Shown here: positions 922 through 21,971 of the stretch, piece after piece
Layout: every line of letters starts with the position of its first letter
Position numbering within the stretch: the first letter of the stretch is position 1
IMG/VR virus record: IMGVR_UViG_3300010153_000064
Location: 1-29,576 of that record
Reading direction: 5' to 3' (one strand)
Source: a virus
DNA: 29,576 nt
Made by a program: the position numbers and the translations under genes
Notes under the pieces: generated by a model
The model's database searches: none
The model's input: only the letters and a program-made list of their open reading frames with translations
Told to the model about the DNA's origin: nothing

Positions 922-1345
922 TGTTGTAGTGTTAATACTAAGTAGTTTAGTACATGCAGATGAATTATTGTTTAAATTTAAAAGTCCTAGCTTTTCAGGA
1001 ATAAATTCTTCTTCACATTACTTAACAATTGAAAACCAAGAAAATACTAGGCGCGGCACAATTAAACAAGAACGTGAAGCTGAGTTAGATGCTATAGAAC
1101 GTGAAGAAAACAACTCAACTTTAGCTAGGTTTATGAGAAATTTTGAATCTAGGGTGTATGCACAGTTAAGCAGACAATTGGTAGAACAACTTTTTGGAGA
1201 AAACCCAAGCACGGAGGGTAAATTAGAATTAGAGGGTAATTTAATAGAGTATGTAGTAGCAGAAGAGACTGTTACACTTACAATTACGGACGAAAATAAT
1301 GGTCAAACTACTATTACTATTCCTGTGGGGGACTTTACTTTCTAG
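902..1345 (+). CDS. csgF: CsgF-like curli assembly factor
   Basis: A 147-residue exported protein. A signal peptide (residues 1-19, cleavage after VHA) is followed by FKFKSPSFSG at 24-33, the counterpart of the FQFRNPNFGG segment at the mature N-terminus of E. coli CsgF, which plugs into the CsgG pore. A helical region (RFMRNFESRVYAQLS, 76-90) and a beta-rich end with GQTTITIPV match the rest of CsgF. In the known system CsgF caps the CsgG channel and couples secretion to fibre nucleation at the cell surface. Translation could start at either of two adjacent ATGs (902 or 905). It is followed by csgG, as in a minimal curli locus. No csgE- or csgD-like gene is visible. Confidence 0.93.
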   Translation: MMKKFCSVVVLILSSLVHADELLFKFKSPSFSGINSSSHYLTIENQENTRRGTIKQEREAELDAIEREENNSTLARFMRNFESRVYAQLSRQLVEQLFGENPSTEGKLELEGNLIEYVVAEETVTLTITDENNGQTTITIPVGDFTF

Positions 1346-2099
1346 TTGTGCGTCTAGAAATTTACTAGAAGGAAGTGGTATCCCTAATGTAATAATAAAA
1401 GATGCCTCTGTTCTGTCGTTACAATCAGAAGAATTAAGGGATATACTTCCAGCAAAGCGTAAACCTGTAATTGCTATTTATGCTAATAGCTTGCAAGACT
1501 TAACAGGCCAACGTAAAAGTAATGGTAGCTTTGCTATGTTTTCTACTGCTATTACACAAGCTCCCGAAGCATTTTTAATTCGTGCGTTAAAACATACTGC
1601 GAGCGGAAAATTTTTTAAAGTTACAGAAAGAGTTGGTTTAGATTCACTTACAAAAGAACGCCAGCTAATTCGCAGCACACGTGATAATTTTGATGAAGAA
1701 AGTAAATTAAAGCCTTTATTATTAGCGGGTTTGTTAATGCAAGGAGGAGTAATAGGCTATGATTCTAATACTTTTTCAGGAGGAGCAGGAGCTCGAATGT
1801 TAGGTATAGGAAGTTCAAAACAATATAGATCTGACTCAGTTAGTGTATCATTAAGATTGGTCAGTGTGTCTACAGGAGAAGTACTACTAGAAGTTCTTAC
1901 TTCAAAAAGTATTTTATCCGTTAGTCTTTCACAAGATGTGTTTAGATTTGTAGACATAAATGGTGCTAGTTTAATTGAAATGGAGGGAGGTATTACTGCA
2001 AACGAAAGCACCTCAATAGCTTTACAAAAAGCAATCGAAGCAGGAGTATTAGAAATGGTAAAAATAGGTATTAGAAAGGGGTATTGGGAATATGAATAA
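1299..2099 (+). CDS. csgG: CsgG-like outer-membrane curli secretion pore (lipoprotein)
   Basis: A 266-residue lipoprotein. A hydrophobic signal with lipobox LSSC gives lipidation at Cys17. Family blocks are clear: DLTGQRK (68-73), FSTAITQ (81-87), GVIGYDSN followed by GGAGARMLGIG (150-171), VSTGEVL (190-196), VFRFVDI (214-220), GYWEYE at the end. CsgG forms a nonameric outer-membrane barrel that exports curlin. Phe81 appears to be the counterpart of the pore-constriction Phe of E. coli CsgG, while the neighbouring Asn position looks like Met. The protein ends at the GxW motif and lacks the longer C-terminal tail of E. coli CsgG. The start is fixed by the need for the signal peptide, which is encoded inside the last 47 bases of csgF. 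Confidence 0.95.
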   Translation: MVKLLLLFLWGTLLSSCASRNLLEGSGIPNVIIKDASVLSLQSEELRDILPAKRKPVIAIYANSLQDLTGQRKSNGSFAMFSTAITQAPEAFLIRALKHTASGKFFKVTERVGLDSLTKERQLIRSTRDNFDEESKLKPLLLAGLLMQGGVIGYDSNTFSGGAGARMLGIGSSKQYRSDSVSVSLRLVSVSTGEVLLEVLTSKSILSVSLSQDVFRFVDINGASLIEMEGGITANESTSIALQKAIEAGVLEMVKIGIRKGYWEYE

Positions 2100-2823
2100 A
2101 ATTACTTGGTTGTTTATGTATACAACTACTTTAGCATATTTGTGTAGTGTGTACAGTTACGCAGCAGATAACGAAATATATGTAGACCAAGTAGGCACAA
2201 CTACGGTTAATATAGACCTTGAACAATTAGGAAGTGGGAACATTATAGGGGGTTTATTAGCGGCAGCTGGTTCTATGACGGCGCTTGATCTTGATGGAAC
2301 CTCAATGACTTTAGATATAAATCAAATTGGAGACACTAATAAATTCCTGGGGGATATGTATGCAGATACATACACTGGTTACTTTAACTTTGATGGTGAT
2401 ACCAACACGTTCACATCTAAAATGGATCCGACCAATGCGTTTGGCGCAGATGGTTCAAATGTTAATGTGCAAGTGACGGGAAATACTAATGCTATGACTC
2501 TTGATTTAGCAACAACTGCTTTAGCTAGTAGTACAGACCTTGATTGGACTATTAACGGAGCGAGTAATACAATTGACGTAGACATTGATGTAGATACAGC
2601 AACTCATTTTTTAGACATAGATGGGAGCAGTAATAATATAAATACAGATATGGACGGGTACGCAAACGGTTATTTTTATTTAGATCATACAGGGAACTCA
2701 AGGACATTTACAATTGATCAAGCAAGTACACAAGCTAGAGATTGGGTGCGTATTACTTCTAATGGTAACAATGGTACAGTTTGTGTTAACCAAAACGACC
2801 AGGGCACAAGTGTCGCTTGCTGA
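2092..2823 (+). CDS. curlin-like amyloid fibre subunit
   Basis: A 243-residue secreted protein with a signal peptide (residues 1-24, ending YSYA). The mature part is Asp/Asn/Thr/Gly-rich with short beta-strand repeats spaced by Gly-x-x-Asn turns: VDQVGTTTVNIDLEQLGSGN, LDINQIGDTNKF, VQVTGNTNAMTLDL, WTINGASNTIDVDI, LDIDGSSNNINTDM. The first units keep the curlin Q-x-G-x-x-N pattern and later ones are degenerate. The C-terminus has two Cys (NGTVCVNQ and a terminal Cys). It has no obvious Gly-rich N22-type targeting segment as in CsgA. Lying directly behind csgG with an 8-base overlap (ATGAATAA), it is the obvious cargo of the pore. It could be nucleator or major subunit. The SD-like AAAGGGG lies about 10 bases upstream. 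Confidence 0.82.
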   Translation: MNKITWLFMYTTTLAYLCSVYSYAADNEIYVDQVGTTTVNIDLEQLGSGNIIGGLLAAAGSMTALDLDGTSMTLDINQIGDTNKFLGDMYADTYTGYFNFDGDTNTFTSKMDPTNAFGADGSNVNVQVTGNTNAMTLDLATTALASSTDLDWTINGASNTIDVDIDVDTATHFLDIDGSSNNINTDMDGYANGYFYLDHTGNSRTFTIDQASTQARDWVRITSNGNNGTVCVNQNDQGTSVAC

Positions 2824-3844
2824 AGATATAGGAAGTATTACACAATTAAACGGTAATACTAGAGTAGTTAGAGACAAACCCTACGAAAGTGCAATCGACT
2901 TTTCGCTTAATTCTATGGACCGTTTAGAAACGGCTGCAGGTAGAATGGGTGTAACATTTCGAGACAACACTACGATACGTTTGACTGAAAACTCAAACGT
3001 GGTTATTGATTCTTTTATCTTTGATCCAGAACCAAATAAATCAAGTATGGCTCTTAATTTTGTAAAAGGAACTGGGAGGTTTATTAGTTCTAAAACAAAA
3101 CGTATACCAAAAGAAAATATTAAAATACGTACACATGCAGCCACCGTAGGGATTAGGGGTACGGACTTTACAATAACTGTAAAAGAAACAGGCGAAGCTC
3201 TTATAATTTTACTGCCAGATGAGTTTGGTAATAGTTCAGGAGAGATTTCTGTAACCACGGCCCTCGGTCAAGCAATATTAAATAAACCCTACGAAAGCAC
3301 AACTGTATATAATTTTGAAACCGCACCTACTACACCTGCTGTACTTAATTTAACGCTGGATATGATTGACAATATGTTGATTATTAATCCCCCTGAAACA
3401 AAAGAATTAGAAGTTAATGAAGATAAATCAGTAGCAGATAATTTACTTGATGTAGACTTTCTTGAGTTTGATGAATTAGAACAAGATGCTCTAGAAGAAG
3501 ATAACTTAGAGTATCAAGAGTTAGATATAGACTATTTAGCGGGTAATTTTTTAGAAGATTTGCTTGATGTTATACAAGAGATTGATGCTTTATCTAAGGC
3601 TGATAAAGCTTTAGGAGAGAGTGGTATACAAGGGACTGCAATAGGATACGATGCTGAAACACAGATTAGTACTTTTGTTAACGATACCGAAGCAAAGTTT
3701 ATAAGACAAATAGAGGACTCAGTACAAATGCAAGTTAATAAAAACGATTCTGTATCTATTGTTATTGAACAAGAAGGTAAGGTAAACAGAGTTTTAAATA
3801 ATGGAGGAACTTCCTCTCGTATTACAATAAGACAAGGCAGCTAA
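2714..3844 (+). CDS. exported FecR-domain protein with curlin-like C-terminal repeat
   Basis: 376 residues from a TTG start preceded by AAGGA; an in-frame ATG at 2762 is the alternative. A hydrophobic segment at about 12-25 followed by TRAQ suggests an export signal. Residues 38-156 form a FecR domain, with DIGSITQLNGNTRVVR at the front and the family-typical AATVGIRGTDF near its end. A long acidic Leu/Asp/Glu-rich segment (about 225-290) follows. The last 40 residues contain SIVIEQEGKVNRV and RITIRQGS, which fit the curlin pattern S-x4-Q-x-G-x-x-N. FecR domains are usually periplasmic. Here the protein may bind or nucleate the fibre (inference). It overlaps the curlin gene by 110 bases in another frame. 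Confidence 0.83.
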   Translation: MIKQVHKLEIGCVLLLMVTMVQFVLTKTTRAQVSLAEDIGSITQLNGNTRVVRDKPYESAIDFSLNSMDRLETAAGRMGVTFRDNTTIRLTENSNVVIDSFIFDPEPNKSSMALNFVKGTGRFISSKTKRIPKENIKIRTHAATVGIRGTDFTITVKETGEALIILLPDEFGNSSGEISVTTALGQAILNKPYESTTVYNFETAPTTPAVLNLTLDMIDNMLIINPPETKELEVNEDKSVADNLLDVDFLEFDELEQDALEEDNLEYQELDIDYLAGNFLEDLLDVIQEIDALSKADKALGESGIQGTAIGYDAETQISTFVNDTEAKFIRQIEDSVQMQVNKNDSVSIVIEQEGKVNRVLNNGGTSSRITIRQGS

Positions 3845-16024: not shown

Positions 16025-16342
16025 TTAACTCCAATCAGGATCATATTCTTCCCATTTGGCTGTAGGTCTAGACAAATTAACTTTGTAAAACTTGACCTTT
16101 TTAGATTTTATGGCTAATTTCTCGTGTTTCATAGTCTTTTTCATAATAAAAAGTACAATAGAAGCAACTAAACCACCTACCATAGCTGCAGCCATACCGC
16201 TGAAAGTACCATAGAAACTGACCATAAGCGTTATTGTAATAAGAATATCTACTACAATATCGTGACCAATTGTTTTGCGACCGCCTAGTTTAAGCGCAAG
16301 CAGCAGCAGTCCTAATGCGCTGGCTATTCCGACTAAAAGCAT
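16025..16342 (-). CDS. multi-span membrane protein
   Basis: 105 residues from the ATG at 16342, preceded by AAGGAG. Three hydrophobic segments are visible: about 2-16 (LLVGIASALGLLLLA), 28-44 (VVDILITITLMVSFYG) and 47-65 (GMAAAMVGGLVASIVLFIM). A basic cytoplasmic-type tail KKTMKHEKLAIKSKK follows and the end is acidic (EEYDPDWS). It starts inside the upstream membrane gene, overlapping it by 53 bases. Candidate roles are a holin or another inner-membrane phage protein; no diagnostic motif. Confidence 0.72.
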   Translation of the reverse strand: MLLVGIASALGLLLLALKLGGRKTIGHDIVVDILITITLMVSFYGTFSGMAAAMVGGLVASIVLFIMKKTMKHEKLAIKSKKVKFYKVNLSRPTAKWEEYDPDWS

Positions 16343-16445
16343 TATTTTTCTCCTTCCACATAAGATAAGCCATGTACCCAAATTGGATAGCTTCGATTAA
16401 GATCCACAAAGCTGTGGTCAAACTACTAATAATAGTTGCATTCAT
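16290..16445 (-). CDS. small single-span membrane protein
   Basis: 51 residues from the ATG at 16445, which has GGAG six bases upstream and overlaps the previous stop (ATGA). One hydrophobic segment (about 4-30, TIISSLTTALWILIEAIQFG onward) is followed by a basic tail (WKEKNNAFSRNSQRIRTAAA). The 3' third is also the start of the next membrane gene read in another frame, an unusually deep overlap. Function unknown; one of three consecutive small membrane proteins. Confidence 0.62.
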   Translation of the reverse strand: MNATIISSLTTALWILIEAIQFGYMAYLMWKEKNNAFSRNSQRIRTAAACA

Positions 16446-16621
16446 TTGTTGCTCCATAAAATATAAAAACAAATACCGATTAAAGAAATTACTGTAAGTA
16501 AAGTAATAGTGTGATGTAACGTAGCAACTATGCCTAATACACCAAGCATAGCAATAGCACCATATAAAATTGAATTTTTGTACTCATTTAAGAGTTGTTT
16601 ACATTTGGACAATTTCACCAT
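16442..16621 (-). CDS. small two-span membrane protein
   Basis: 59 residues from the ATG at 16621 (MVKLSKCKQLLNEYKN), with GGAG about ten bases upstream, inside the end of the VWA gene (23-base overlap). Two hydrophobic segments: about 19-34 (ILYGAIAMLGVLGIVA) and 37-56 (HTITLLTVISLIGICFYILW), with a short basic start. Two-span topology with a tiny hairpin loop is compatible with a holin, which I infer only weakly. Translationally coupled to both neighbours. Confidence 0.66.
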   Translation of the reverse strand: MVKLSKCKQLLNEYKNSILYGAIAMLGVLGIVATLHHTITLLTVISLIGICFYILWSNK

Positions 16622-17723
16622 AAGGAGCCTCCGTGGCTTCTGTTGTAACCCATAACACAGGATAATCAGGTTGTTCACCAAAATCCCATGCTTCTAGATC
16701 TGTTAGATAAACTAATGCACATACATTAGGATATTTTTTATTTACATAATCAATAGCTGGCCCAAACGCAGTACCACCACCACCACCGTATTTTACTTTA
16801 AGAGGTAAGTCCTCACGGGTGTATGTAGTATCGTCATGGACTTCAGTATCGCATTGTATAAATCGAACTAACTCAGGATTTAAGTCATGTAAGATACTGG
16901 TAATTTCACCAGTAAACTGTTCGAGATACTCACGGCATGATCCAGAAGAATCACCAACTATAGCGATCTCACCTAACGAAGGATTATATAGTGAAGGTAA
17001 GTACATACCTTGTGCAATAAACCTACGATTGGGTTTAGCCCATGAAAAGTCAGACTTGTTGTTGGCACGTAAAAATCTAGCAAGTACCATTTTCCAATCG
17101 ACTTTAGGAGCTAAAGCTTTTTCTACTAACTCTTGCATGTGTCCTGGTAATTTACCTACACCCTTAGCTACTTCAGCAGCTTGTTGTATAGCTATATTAG
17201 TATCAGCTTCAAATTTACCAGTACCTGAACCTTCGGCTAACGATTCATGGTCGATCACTCCACCGCAACCACCAGGATCAAATCCTTCTAGTAGTGCTAC
17301 ACCAGATATAGGATCATCACCTAGATCTTTAGGCAGTTTGTTATACACATCTTCGGTGCTATGATCTTCGTATTGTTCATCATATAGCTCACCATGCGGT
17401 AGTATAAGACCACACTTTCTGAGAGCTAAGTTGATGACATAATCACCGGCAATGTTCCACCGTTTGGGATCGCGTTCCATACGGCGTAACATATGCAGTA
17501 GCACAACATGCATTACTTCGTGAGCTATAAGCCCAACACGTTGTGCTTCGGTAAGTTTAAGAAACCATTTAGGATTAAACTTAATGTACTGCCCGTTAGT
17601 ACAGGCAGTTTCAATAGTCTCATCTTCAATAGGTGTCAAACGTAACGCTAGAGTACCAAAGAAAGGCTGATCTAAAATTAGACGAGCACGAGCTTTGGTA
17701 TAAGCTTGCATTGCTTCGGACAT
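16599..17723 (-). CDS. metallopeptidase-like/VWA-domain protein (DUF2201 type)
   Basis: 374 residues with two modules. The N-terminal module has an intact zinc-peptidase motif HEVMH (68-72) followed by WNIAGDYVINLAL, the usual downstream Asp. The C-terminal module is von Willebrand A-like, with the MIDAS sequence DSSGS (258-262), GGGGGT (313-318) and YLTDLEAWD (339-347). Bacterial proteins of this plan (DUF2201) pair with MoxR-type AAA+ ATPases; such a gene lies at 18586-19602 with one gene in between. The pair may act as a chaperone/remodelling machine on a metal-dependent complex (inference). Ends inside a cluster of small membrane genes. Confidence 0.88.
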   Translation of the reverse strand: MSEAMQAYTKARARLILDQPFFGTLALRLTPIEDETIETACTNGQYIKFNPKWFLKLTEAQRVGLIAHEVMHVVLLHMLRRMERDPKRWNIAGDYVINLALRKCGLILPHGELYDEQYEDHSTEDVYNKLPKDLGDDPISGVALLEGFDPGGCGGVIDHESLAEGSGTGKFEADTNIAIQQAAEVAKGVGKLPGHMQELVEKALAPKVDWKMVLARFLRANNKSDFSWAKPNRRFIAQGMYLPSLYNPSLGEIAIVGDSSGSCREYLEQFTGEITSILHDLNPELVRFIQCDTEVHDDTTYTREDLPLKVKYGGGGGTAFGPAIDYVNKKYPNVCALVYLTDLEAWDFGEQPDYPVLWVTTEATEAPYGEIVQM

Positions 17724-18574
17724 TAATTATCTCCTAATAAGGAAGAAGTAAGAATAGTATTATTAAGATTAGCAGCTGATACAGCTTCATCAGCAGCAAG
17801 TTTTAATTTTTGTTGTTTACGTTTACGTTGTTGCTTTTCGTTGACTTTAGCCATATGGTTTGAAGTAACAAGCTTACTGATACCAGGCCAAGCTTTTAGT
17901 GCTTGGTTAAGTGTAGTAAATTGAGTTAACAAATCTTCTAACTTGCATATTTCATATTCTCTTTGTAGTTTAGCTTTTTTGTATTCTAAATCCAAAGCAG
18001 TAATATTAGATAATGTAGTGGAAGCAGCAACTTCAGAAGAAGTAAAATATAACTCTAAGGGACTAGGGTCATAGCTATTGTAATGACATGGCACTACAAC
18101 TTCTTTAGATAAAGGAATACTTATTTTTCGATAATCAGTATCTTTTATAGCTATTGCAACTGGACCATCTGCTCTAGCAGCATTCCTAGTACGTAGCATG
18201 TCAACTGTTTGAGTATGATCTCCAGTATCAACTGCATACCAAGCACATTCTGATAAAGGTAAATTTATCCAAAGTTTTGTAGTATGAGAAAAATATTCTT
18301 TAGGATATTTTTGACCAGAACGTACACAACCTCCTTCAGGGTTGATTTTGTTTTCTAGTTTTATATTATTATATAATGGATCTGATATATAAGTTTCAGT
18401 ATGTGCTAATAATGGAAACATATATTGGTCATATAGTTTGTCACCATCAGTTGCATCATACGCAGGACCATTATAACCAGCATTATTTAAAACTGGACTA
18501 GTGCGTTTATAGGCACTTTTATACTCATTTACAATATGAGATTGTAGAGCCATAGACATTCTAACTGTAGACAT
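17723..18574 (-). CDS. hypothetical protein between MoxR and VWA genes
   Basis: 283 residues. The front has aromatic-rich, mixed alpha/beta sequence (KLWINLPLSECAWYAVDTGD about 109-128; ISIPLSKEVVVPCHYNSYDP about 161-180). A long coiled coil follows (about 196-225, LEYKKAKLQREYEICKLEDL), then FTTLNQALKAWPGISKLV and a basic Lys/Gln/Arg-rich, Ala-rich tail. The coiled coil plus the LxxAWPGI end recalls uncharacterised proteins of large phages, but I cannot name the family. It shares a base with the VWA start (TAATG) and lies 11 bases after MoxR, so it is likely the third partner of that system. Confidence 0.65.
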   Translation of the reverse strand: MSTVRMSMALQSHIVNEYKSAYKRTSPVLNNAGYNGPAYDATDGDKLYDQYMFPLLAHTETYISDPLYNNIKLENKINPEGGCVRSGQKYPKEYFSHTTKLWINLPLSECAWYAVDTGDHTQTVDMLRTRNAARADGPVAIAIKDTDYRKISIPLSKEVVVPCHYNSYDPSPLELYFTSSEVAASTTLSNITALDLEYKKAKLQREYEICKLEDLLTQFTTLNQALKAWPGISKLVTSNHMAKVNEKQQRKRKQQKLKLAADEAVSAANLNNTILTSSLLGDN

Positions 18575-18585
18575 TGCATTCTCCT

Positions 18586-19602
18586 CTATAGAATTACATT
18601 AGAATTTTTAGACACCCACGATGTAATCGCGGCATTATTTAGAAGTGTTGAATCAACACCTAACGAACTTTTGATACCAACAACTTGAAACTCGACTGGT
18701 AATTTCTCAATTACTTTTACGATATTAGTTATTTTAGTATCACAGGCTTGAGCAGCCAGAGCACCTGTAAGTGCATACAGTACCGCTGGATTGTCGTCCT
18801 TTTTGTAGGTACTTGGGTTAGCAATCAACTCATCTATATCAGGCAATGATGTACAGATTTGTCTGAAAGCCATATATTCCCCAGCAGGCCCATCACCGAC
18901 AAGTGATGAAACTCCATAAAAGAGTCGGTCTTCGTCAACTTTTGGTAATTTCAACCGTTTGTCTACGAATGACCAGCTACGAGGAGTTGGGAAAGCATAA
19001 CTCTCTGGATTGAAGTCATACAATAAGCCAGGACGATATCGTAAGAACGAAATCAAAGTCGAGTCTATATTGTTGGCATTAGCCCATGTGCACCAGTCCT
19101 CGAGGCTAGCTTCGAGTTCATAGTGGGCAAGTCTATTTCTTACAGGTGATGGCATTTGATAAACTGCAGCGGCATCAGTAAGTCTGTTACCAGCGGCAAT
19201 CATAGACCACCCATCAGGAATGCGGTAATTACCGACTTGACGGGTGAGTAGTAGTTGAAGGAACGCATTTTGTGTAGCCGGCGGTGCAGTTGGTAATTCA
19301 TCAATCATAAATATACCGCGTTTACCATCGCGTTCAGCAATTGGAAATATGTCAGGCACAGCCCAACGTGTAAAACGTTTGTTAGTTCCTGTTTGCTGAG
19401 CCACGTACGGTACACCACGTACGTCAACAGGATCGAATAAGTTAGCACGAAAATCTAACAAAGTTATGTTACGTTCCGCAGCACATTGTTGTGGTATTTC
19501 TGACTTACCAATGCCGGGTCCGCCCCATATCATAGTGTTAAGATTTGCTAACATATTGTCGAATATTTCAGCAACTAGTTTTGAAGGTCGAATTGCGTGC
19601 AT
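18586..19602 (-). CDS. MoxR-type AAA+ ATPase
   Basis: 338 residues. Walker A WGGPGIGKSE (26-35), a loop ANLFDPVDVRGVPYV typical of the MoxR/dynein-related branch (53-67), Walker B FMIDELPTAP (98-107), AAGNR as sensor 1 (136-140) and SPVRNRLAH with the arginine finger (152-160). Such ATPases remodel partner complexes and normally work with a VWA-domain protein, here encoded two genes downstream. Cytoplasmic. It starts 14 bases after the small gene at 19617-19832, in the same transcript. A good ribosome site (GAGGAG) is placed about eleven bases upstream. Confidence 0.92.
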   Translation of the reverse strand: MHAIRPSKLVAEIFDNMLANLNTMIWGGPGIGKSEIPQQCAAERNITLLDFRANLFDPVDVRGVPYVAQQTGTNKRFTRWAVPDIFPIAERDGKRGIFMIDELPTAPPATQNAFLQLLLTRQVGNYRIPDGWSMIAAGNRLTDAAAVYQMPSPVRNRLAHYELEASLEDWCTWANANNIDSTLISFLRYRPGLLYDFNPESYAFPTPRSWSFVDKRLKLPKVDEDRLFYGVSSLVGDGPAGEYMAFRQICTSLPDIDELIANPSTYKKDDNPAVLYALTGALAAQACDTKITNIVKVIEKLPVEFQVVGIKSSLGVDSTLLNNAAITSWVSKNSNVIL

Positions 19603-19616
19603 AATAATTTACTCCT

Positions 19617-19832
19617 CTAAGTAGATGGCACAGGTTCGATATCGCGGATTTTGATAATCCTTGATCGTAGTTCTTGGTTAAATTGTTCAATGGCTAATTT
19701 TTCATAGTCAATGTGTTTTTGTATTGGATAAGGTGCTCTAAACTCTATCTCAATAGATTGTTCTGGTTTGCTAGCATGATAAAACATGGCACGAAACCAA
19801 AGGTTCCTGTATTTAGGAATAGTAGTCTTCAT
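19617..19832 (-). CDS. hypothetical protein leading the MoxR-VWA transcript
   Basis: 71 residues: MKTTIPKYRNLWFRAMFYHA at the start, then IEIEFRAPYPIQKHIDYEKL and a helix AIEQFNQELRSRIIKIRDIE. Basic, no signal or membrane span. AGGAG lies seven bases before the ATG. It follows a terminator and a probable promoter, so it is likely the first gene of the transcript that continues through MoxR and VWA. Function unknown. Confidence 0.72.
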   Translation of the reverse strand: MKTTIPKYRNLWFRAMFYHASKPEQSIEIEFRAPYPIQKHIDYEKLAIEQFNQELRSRIIKIRDIEPVPST

Positions 19833-19931: not shown

Positions 19932-19966
19932 AAAAAAACCCTCTACCAGACTAAGCTAGTAGAGGG
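19932..19966 (-). terminator. rho-independent terminator between early and MoxR blocks
   Basis: Read on the minus strand, CCCTCTAC pairs perfectly with GTAGAGGG around a 12-base loop and is followed by seven T. It lies 70 bases after the stop of the 251-residue gene at 20037 and ends the transcript coming from the 20.8-23.5 kb region. Confidence 0.9.
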
Positions 19967-20036
19967 TTAAGTTGAGCAGTTTTTGTGATACACACCAAGG
20001 AAGTAATGTGCACGTCATACTCAGGACTTCTATAAA

Positions 20037-21453: not shown

Positions 21454-21912
21454 TTATATGAGCTGAGCTTGAACCCAAGTCTCATCTTGATCTTGTTGAT
21501 AAGCCCAATGCTCTTGTTGTAACTGATGCTCTGCCTGTGCAATAGTATCCATAGTGTATACTCTGGTTTCTAGCCCTTGGCGATTAGCTAAAGTAATCAT
21601 ATGGCTTGAGCCTTTACTTACACCGTCCCAAAAGACTACGCAAGCATCGGCATATTTAGCCATAGCATCATTACGTACATACCCAGCTTTACGCCCGAGC
21701 TTATTCCAATCAGGAAGAAACTGTTTGATAGGGTAGTTGTTAGCTTTAGCAAACTTTTCACCAAGCTTATCAGCACCTCTAGCACCACCAGAAACTATTT
21801 CTATGGATTTAGGATCCTGATTTTGAAATAAGAATGAAAGTTTCTTCGAGACGAAGTCAAACTGTTCTGAAGAACTAACACCACGTGAACCTGCAATAAT
21901 AACTTTAAACAT
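21454..21912 (-). CDS. SLOG/DUF2493-type nucleotide-binding protein
   Basis: 152 residues from the ATG at 21912 (MFKVIIAGSRGVSS), which follows a ribosome site and a repeated leader element; a longer in-frame start lacks support. Rossmann-like motifs: IIAGSRG (5-11), VSGGARGADKLGEKFAK (about 41-57), LPDWNKLGRKAGYVRNDAM (about 66-84) and ACVVFWDGVSKGSSHMI (about 89-105). This is the DUF2493/YspA branch of the SLOG superfamily, predicted to bind or hydrolyse nucleotide-derived ligands. A role in NAD or nucleotide signalling during infection is inference. The C-terminus is Gln-rich (QAEHQLQQEHWAYQQDQDE). Confidence 0.86.
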   Translation of the reverse strand: MFKVIIAGSRGVSSSEQFDFVSKKLSFLFQNQDPKSIEIVSGGARGADKLGEKFAKANNYPIKQFLPDWNKLGRKAGYVRNDAMAKYADACVVFWDGVSKGSSHMITLANRQGLETRVYTMDTIAQAEHQLQQEHWAYQQDQDETWVQAQLI

Positions 21913-21928
21913 AACTTTTACCTTGTAG

Positions 21929-21971
21929 TTGATTAAAAACACTTGAAATAATATTTACGAGCTTGCTCGTG
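21929..21971 (-). promoter_or_regulatory. repeated leader/promoter element, copy 2
   Basis: Minus strand: CACGAG-CAAG-CTCGTA hairpin (21971-21956), then AATATTATTTCAAGTGTTTT and TAATCAAC, ending about 17 bases before the ATG of the SLOG gene (21912). The hairpin overlaps the last codons of the gene upstream. The outer stem pair is a G-U here. Confidence 0.65.

Follow-up and report, generated by a model that had tools for sequence, protein, structure and literature searches.

An Nmad5-like protein encoded between a MoxR ATPase and a metallopeptidase-VWA protein in one viral lineage

A stretch of viral DNA of 29,576 nucleotides, positions 1 to 29,576 of the IMG/VR record IMGVR_UViG_3300010153_000064 (the window, meaning that whole stretch), carries on its minus strand three intact genes that encode a MoxR-type AAA+ ATPase, a middle protein, and a protein combining a putative zincin metallopeptidase domain with a VWA domain. 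The outer pair is of the phage N4 gp24/gp25 kind and as such is already known. What is new is the recognition that the protein encoded between them is Nmad5-like, that is, apparently a remote relative of nucleotide modification associated domain 5 proteins, and that its position is fixed in one viral lineage. The identities are firm and a functional link among the three proteins is plausible; the reading tentatively favoured here is that of a MoxR-VWA remodelling machine with the Nmad5-like protein as its dedicated client or adaptor. An earlier description made from the letters of the window alone (the original prediction) had proposed three intact genes, a Walker A/B ATPase and a protein with both HEVMH and a metal ion-dependent adhesion site (MIDAS) of the form DSSGS, all of which were confirmed by the open reading frames (ORFs), phrog_1297, PF13203/PF09967 and alignment. 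Its analogy to bacterial remodelling chaperones also holds, and the partner that it had to leave as unknown can now be placed.

Identity of the three proteins

The middle protein is called Nmad5-like rather than Nmad5 because, taken by itself, the protein from the window does not pass the test of Pfam, and its placement is argued from its family. When 15 aligned members were searched, 10 matched Pfam Nmad5 (best E 1.4e-5), the next Pfam family being matched by only 2, and 11 matched phrog_1965 (best E 1.1e-8), the PHROG of clear Nmad5 proteins, every other PHROG being matched by only 1. Comparison of 52 middle proteins with nine Nmad5 proteins by hhalign gave E 3e-9 at probability 96. In the reverse direction, the 52-protein profile recovered eight of the nine Nmad5 proteins at E <=0.02, and five of the nine at E ~1e-4 or better; the ninth, from Vibrio phage D270, was found at E 4.

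The predicted fold was compared as well. An AlphaFold2 model of the middle protein (mean predicted local distance difference test score 84.9, predicted template-modelling score 0.76) contains helices at residues 186-217 and 238-279, which fit the coiled-coil character originally ascribed to it, together with a central strand region that this description had lacked. Foldseek against a viral library returned two "nucleotide modification associated" proteins at probability 0.97 (E 0.017 and 0.024) and an eiAU protein at 0.85, with template-modelling scores of only 0.3-0.5; names of the former kind stood at ranks 8, 9, 18 and 22 and the eiAU protein at rank 14, while the top three ranks carried no informative name. 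A fold search of the Protein Data Bank with the same model gave nothing significant, a second fold comparison gave mostly long-helix matches (best Z 5.2), and a search by sequence found no solved structure for the family. Overall, the profile comparison agrees with a remote relationship to Nmad5 and the predicted fold is compatible with it.

Middle proteins and Nmad5 proteins (PF18757, phrog_1965) have in common a short N-terminal helix motif and C-terminal helices with a T-T-(V/L) ... WP ... L-P motif. The middle proteins differ in being mostly longer, in having another C-terminal end and a weak score against the family model, and in being linked to MoxR-VWA genes and not to thymidylate synthase. 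They are also highly divergent, with 20-38% identity among lineage members compared with 48-78% for MoxR and 52-89% for the VWA protein. Against 50,697 phage records, tblastn with the window middle protein found 7 weak records (best E 0.9), and a relative from another lineage locus (L020) found none. Within isolate loci, the middle-protein profiles matched only Nmad5 proteins, at E <0.02 (A2) or 0.047 (A4).

The ATPase scored under the Pfam AAA_3 cut-off of 27 (17.1 bits by hmmscan, 18.5 in the genome search); the name MoxR-like is taken from its phrog_1297 match and from annotated relatives and does not depend on Pfam. The metallopeptidase-VWA protein scored well over its cut-offs, with 187.3 bits for DUF2201_N (PF13203; cut-off 23.2) and 80 bits for the VWA-like DUF2201 (PF09967; cut-off 26.4). 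Residues 249-374 of its predicted model match VWA domains (best Z 13.9, root-mean-square deviation 2.1, 126 residues aligned), the fold-match rows mainly covering residues 217-374. For neither protein did a search by sequence find a solved structure. Many phage records carry onto the metallopeptidase-VWA gene the label "HNH endonuclease" from phrog_1314, which is misleading as judged by the DUF2201 and VWA matches in this family.

Conservation was examined in alignments of 83 rows, comprising the window, lineage members and nine isolates. The zincin motif HEVMH (residues 68-72) keeps H68, E69 and H72 in 82 of the 83 rows, with only candidates available for a third zinc ligand, namely Asp94 (82/83) and the invariant His77. 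In the MIDAS, whose DSSGS occupies residues 258-262, D258, S260 and S262 are kept in every row, T318 in 82 and D342 in 80 (two of the three exceptions being gaps). The ATPase retains Walker A Lys33 and Walker B Asp101-Glu102 in 82/83 rows each, and sensor-1 Asn139, Arg157 and Arg208 in 83/83. Mutated catalytic motifs, which the original prediction had named as evidence that would count against it, are thus not a feature of the lineage, the motifs being intact in essentially all homologues. Such conservation indicates that selection maintains the ATPase in an active state and its partner with an intact metal site; the machine looks active, and its peptidase activity is putative.

Distribution of the trio and of the outer pair

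Loci were collected with each protein as query (33 with MoxR, 7 with VWA and 80 with the middle protein), and the same contig can recur across queries. Wherever both flanks were present, the middle gene lay between MoxR and VWA, in 30/30, 5/5 and 72/72 loci respectively, and it was still kept where insertions of up to 1.5 kb occurred on one side. Outside the lineage the picture is different. Both pair genes were present in all nine of the first isolate loci (L043-L051), with no significant Nmad5-like profile match in any of the nine MoxR-VWA gaps, which held RNase H, MazG, one annotated HNH endonuclease, or no annotated gene. Separate retention of these genes, the other result named in advance as weighing against the prediction, is therefore absent from every both-flank contig of the lineage and present beyond it, where no middle gene stands between the two members of the pair. 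The gene-neighbourhood survey that had been suggested accordingly finds the trio fixed in one lineage, and it is lineage-specific because elsewhere the pair occurs without the middle gene and Nmad5 without a nearby pair.

A second Nmad5-like copy of ~280 aa follows the VWA gene in 20/30 and 31/72 loci, in most of them at a distance of 0.5-1.3 kb (L008-L035 and others), and resembles the middle protein in its N-terminal motif and over its final 80 residues, which the two share. The contig nearest to the window (57 kb) has one Nmad5-like copy only. In the phage records, the second-copy type matched five at E 0.01-0.07, including ep3, a true Nmad5 by Pfam. An LLGDD-like C-terminal tail, found in the middle proteins and the second copy, was considered as a MIDAS ligand or bait and rejected, being largely the embedded ribosome-binding site of the next gene. 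Among 56 complete type-A genes, the codon of the conserved tail Gly is GGA in 41 and GGG in 2, and that of Glu is GAG in 10. GGT was counted in three more through an artefact of the pattern, as these genes end in ILGGSLLED and the real codon is GAG. Over the remaining length of the same genes, GGA makes up 43/319 Gly codons and GAG 310/1090 Glu codons. A sequence resembling a Shine-Dalgarno (SD) site occurs at the tail in 51/51 genes with an ATG near the stop.

The outer pair itself is widespread. Searches of the same 50,697 phage records by tblastn matched the ATPase in 797 and the VWA protein in 558, many of them Schitoviridae records labelled N4 gp24-like or gp25-like. In the portions of the N4 literature available, gp24 is listed as an AAA ATPase and gp25 as a vWFA protein or metallopeptidase, of unknown function. 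N4 and its relatives have the same two families in the same order in the replication/middle region, and in the Schitoviridae loci examined the pair sits by helicase and DNA polymerase. These loci differ from the window in having no Nmad5-like gene directly between the pair; the interval contains an Nmad5, along with further genes, in Vibrio phage 1.097.O alone. Annotation in phages B2, D270 and Halo_KS_7 likewise puts the ATPase beside a metallopeptidase or "HNH endonuclease".

The difference between the two record totals at first suggested loss of the partner in MoxR-only phages, a reading that was not retained. The MoxR and VWA counts are equal for Pseudomonas (112/112), Vibrio (104/104), Rhizobium (20/20) and Achromobacter (17/17), and unequal for Escherichia (186/75), Klebsiella (70/41) and some others. 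Vequintavirus MaxBurger, with a MoxR match, has an annotated putative metallopeptidase ~4 kb from MoxR. The MoxR or VWA gene of MaxBurger (L136) and MIF8 (L044) has rIIA/rIIB genes no more than a few kb away. In Escherichia phage Pollock, the gp24-like ATPase appears split (L051, 4154-5942): a gene for an HNH homing endonuclease stands between an N-terminal fragment of 85 aa and an ORF matching the remainder, so that a mobile intron may interrupt the gene. The ATPase match in pYD6-A is likewise in two pieces.

Layout and setting of the unit

The features of the unit are collected in Table 1. Junctions within the trio are short or overlapping and carry SD sequences. The unit is longer than originally proposed, with a 71-aa ORF before MoxR and small membrane-protein genes after VWA. 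Of 109 loci with MoxR, 33 have a same-strand homologue of the 71-aa ORF, the gap to MoxR being -3 to 36 nt in 31 of the 33. The small hydrophobic genes after VWA have same-strand homologues in 96 (16442..16621), 87 (16290..16445) and 100 (16025..16342) of 109 loci with VWA; the three hydrophobic segments of the last were counted by hydropathy on a longer ORF. A strong terminator separates the unit from the gene upstream. The idea that the unit has its own likely promoter was not supported, as 18 promoter-like sites were found compared with 24.5 (standard deviation 5.4) in shuffled sequences, which is no excess.

Table 1. Features of the MoxR/metallopeptidase-VWA unit in the window
Feature	Position	Strand	Basis or remark
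MoxR-type AAA+ ATPase, 338 aa, N4 gp24-like	18586..19602	-	phrog_1297 9.2e-87; tblastn in 797 phage records
Middle protein, 283 aa, divergent Nmad5-like	17723..18574	-	family profile comparison
Putative zincin metallopeptidase domain (DUF2201_N) + VWA/MIDAS domain (DUF2201), 374 aa, N4 gp25-like (phrog_1314)	16599..17723	-	PF13203, PF09967
71-aa ORF, first gene of unit, directly upstream of MoxR	19617..19832	-	14 nt before MoxR
Intrinsic terminator ending upstream gene	19937..19968	-	13-pair stem with T run
Small two-helix membrane protein overlapping VWA end	16442..16621	-	hydropathy; start taken as ATG of MVKLSK, picked by eye
Small hydrophobic protein	16290..16445	-	no segment over the hydropathy threshold used; start picked by eye
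Membrane protein, several hydrophobic segments	16025..16342	-	hydropathy; phrog_37899 2.1e-9, unknown function; start picked by eye

Among lineage loci, the strand of the unit is that of DNA polymerase in 78/78 matches and of a primase/helicase-like gene in 71/71, with terminase on the opposite strand in 49/49 and portal in 22/22. This arrangement disfavours virion assembly, because the unit shares its strand with replication genes and lies opposite terminase and portal, and it leaves replication, host takeover or a membrane target. The lineage would be marine, to judge from related roseophage and cyanophage matches.

Elsewhere in the window are genes for a CsgG-family (curli transport) protein (1299-2099, plus strand; PF03783, 1.9e-45) and, close to it, a FecR-domain protein (2714-3844, plus strand; PF04773, 2.2e-12), as well as a SLOG-family (YspA/YAcAr) domain protein (21454-21942, minus strand; 2.8e-9). 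Members of the SLOG family bind nucleotide-like ligands.

Function of the unit

The mechanism considered here is modelled on NorQ-NorD, likewise a MoxR ATPase with a VWA/MIDAS partner. The available portions of the NorQD papers (PMC9976466, PMC13036017) report that a finger of the VWA protein enters the ATPase pore and that the MIDAS is needed for client activation and not for NorQ binding, its presumed ligand being an acidic residue of the client. There the client is nitric oxide reductase, and those portions describe no metallopeptidase domain in NorD. By analogy, the phage ATPase would form a ring and engage its metallopeptidase-VWA partner at the VWA domain; an acidic residue of a client would then be bound by the metal site of the MIDAS, and turnover of ATP would strain the client or present it to the zincin-like peptidase domain, which would add possible cleavage to a NorQD-like core. 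The Nmad5-like protein, encoded between the pair and tightly coupled to it, is the best candidate for a dedicated client or adaptor in the marine lineage because of its position and co-retention. The target would probably lie in DNA replication, DNA modification or host takeover, and not in the virion, because the unit would be made with the replication genes.

How far Nmad5 and the pair belong together can be judged from phages outside the lineage, where one Nmad5 query found proteins in 121 phage records. In the schitovirus 1.097.O, a clear Nmad5 (48.6 bits, cut-off 27) is encoded 0.86 kb after MoxR and 4.5 kb before VWA, among other genes, the two pair genes being 6 kb apart. This is an independent case of Nmad5 between MoxR and VWA and is counted in favour of the dedicated client or adaptor. 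In the same phage, the annotation of a thymidylate synthase complementing protein falls into two pieces, one on either side of a 218-aa ORF (L139, 17454-18862), perhaps another interrupted gene. With phages B2 and D270 (below) taken into account, closeness of Nmad5 to the pair is recurrent and not obligate.

Several observations weigh against the client or adaptor reading. By itself, the window middle protein has no match in Pfam (E<=1), PHROGs or NCBIfam and does not reach the PF18757 cut-off. Many phages with Nmad5 are of 40-62 kb types, with no pair seen near Nmad5 in the stretches examined; in other Schitoviridae the two are separated, Nmad5 adjoining thymidylate synthase ~11 kb from the pair in Shigella phage B2 and lying ~3.6 kb upstream of the pair in Vibrio phage D270. 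ThyX and ThyA profiles, which gave detections in 6 and 9 of 14 control genomes, each found thymidylate synthase in 0 of 12 long lineage contigs, which are possibly incomplete; a DNA-modification target is not supported and is weakened by this absence. Finally, all contigs with the trio belong to one syntenic lineage, with DNA polymerase in 78 loci and the downstream membrane protein in 100/109. Much of the fixed gene order is explained by this shared descent, and the order may reflect descent alone.

In one alternative, the MoxR-VWA pair works by itself as a chaperone-protease, and the Nmad5-like gene is a passenger specific to the lineage, which descent has fixed and whose separate role would lie in nucleotide or DNA metabolism. 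This alternative is possible and has to be taken seriously. It would account for the other genes, or lack of annotated genes, in the gap of other phages, for the broadly conserved synteny of the lineage, and for the standing of Nmad5 alone beside thymidylate synthase in B2 and near a putative dUMP hydroxymethyltransferase in YuA. However, the middle protein diverges far faster than its neighbours, yet was never lost or moved in 107 both-flank locus observations (contigs overlap between queries), which counts against this alternative.

A further alternative is that the machine acts in virion assembly or processing, with the middle protein as an assembly factor. The same architecture, an N-terminal metallopeptidase fused to vWA with a MoxR partner, was described in group 2.2 jumbo phages by Iyer et al. 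2021 (PMC7824862), who in the portion available proposed a role in virion assembly. In Acidianus two-tailed virus, according to the available part of a review (PMC4124505), the MoxR ATPase p618 binds virion proteins and its VWA partner p892, and in cyanophage S-TIM5 the pair is near a gene annotated as a virion structural protein. The Acidianus virus is archaeal, its proteins have a virion tail role, and that part of the review mentions no peptidase domain; the window pair differs from that of the jumbo phages in its place on the replication strand and in its Nmad5-like partner. With the strand counts given above, and with the pair placed by helicase and DNA polymerase in Schitoviridae, a virion function, including the virion maturation suggested in the original prediction, is unlikely. 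Another of its suggestions, counter-defence, found no direct support. The MoxR-vWA ternary conflict systems treated in the accessible text of Kaur et al. 2020 are bacterial, with a third component of the VMAP or FtsH/beta-propeller type; the middle protein has no Pfam match. It is improbable, too, that the unit remodels a membrane complex, with the two or three small membrane proteins after VWA as targets and the middle protein as a soluble adaptor: the conserved same-strand hydrophobic genes, the first overlapping the VWA end, the resemblance to RavA-ViaA and to NorQD, which acts on a membrane enzyme and whose nor operon carries the small membrane proteins NorE and NorF (same NorQD sources), and the rIIA-type membrane genes near the pair in MIF8 and MaxBurger would all fit, but the link is possibly lineage synteny only.

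The dedicated client or adaptor thus remains the tentative choice, and it gives the trio its interest. Phages widely carry MoxR-VWA pairs in which a metallopeptidase is fused, with hundreds of records, and a tested function was not found in the literature examined; nor did the open-licence papers searched include one that links Nmad5 to MoxR-VWA. A partner fixed between the pair is a named candidate client, and it joins two unexplained families, that of N4 gp24/gp25 and that of Nmad5, which has been implicated in Tmn sensing. As reported in the available part of PMC11846954, a single nmad5 substitution in Dhillonvirus escapes Tmn immunity and an nmad5 deletion does not. It is a bolder idea, and one unlikely to hold, that Nmad5-type proteins in general serve the MoxR/metallopeptidase-VWA machines of phages as clients or substrate adaptors, the lineage showing the coupled state, in which the machine would activate or cleave the Nmad5-like protein in early infection. 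If true, it would bear on the escape of Dhillonvirus from Tmn by nmad5 substitution, and "nucleotide modification associated domain 5" may then name a regulated host-takeover factor and not a modification enzyme.

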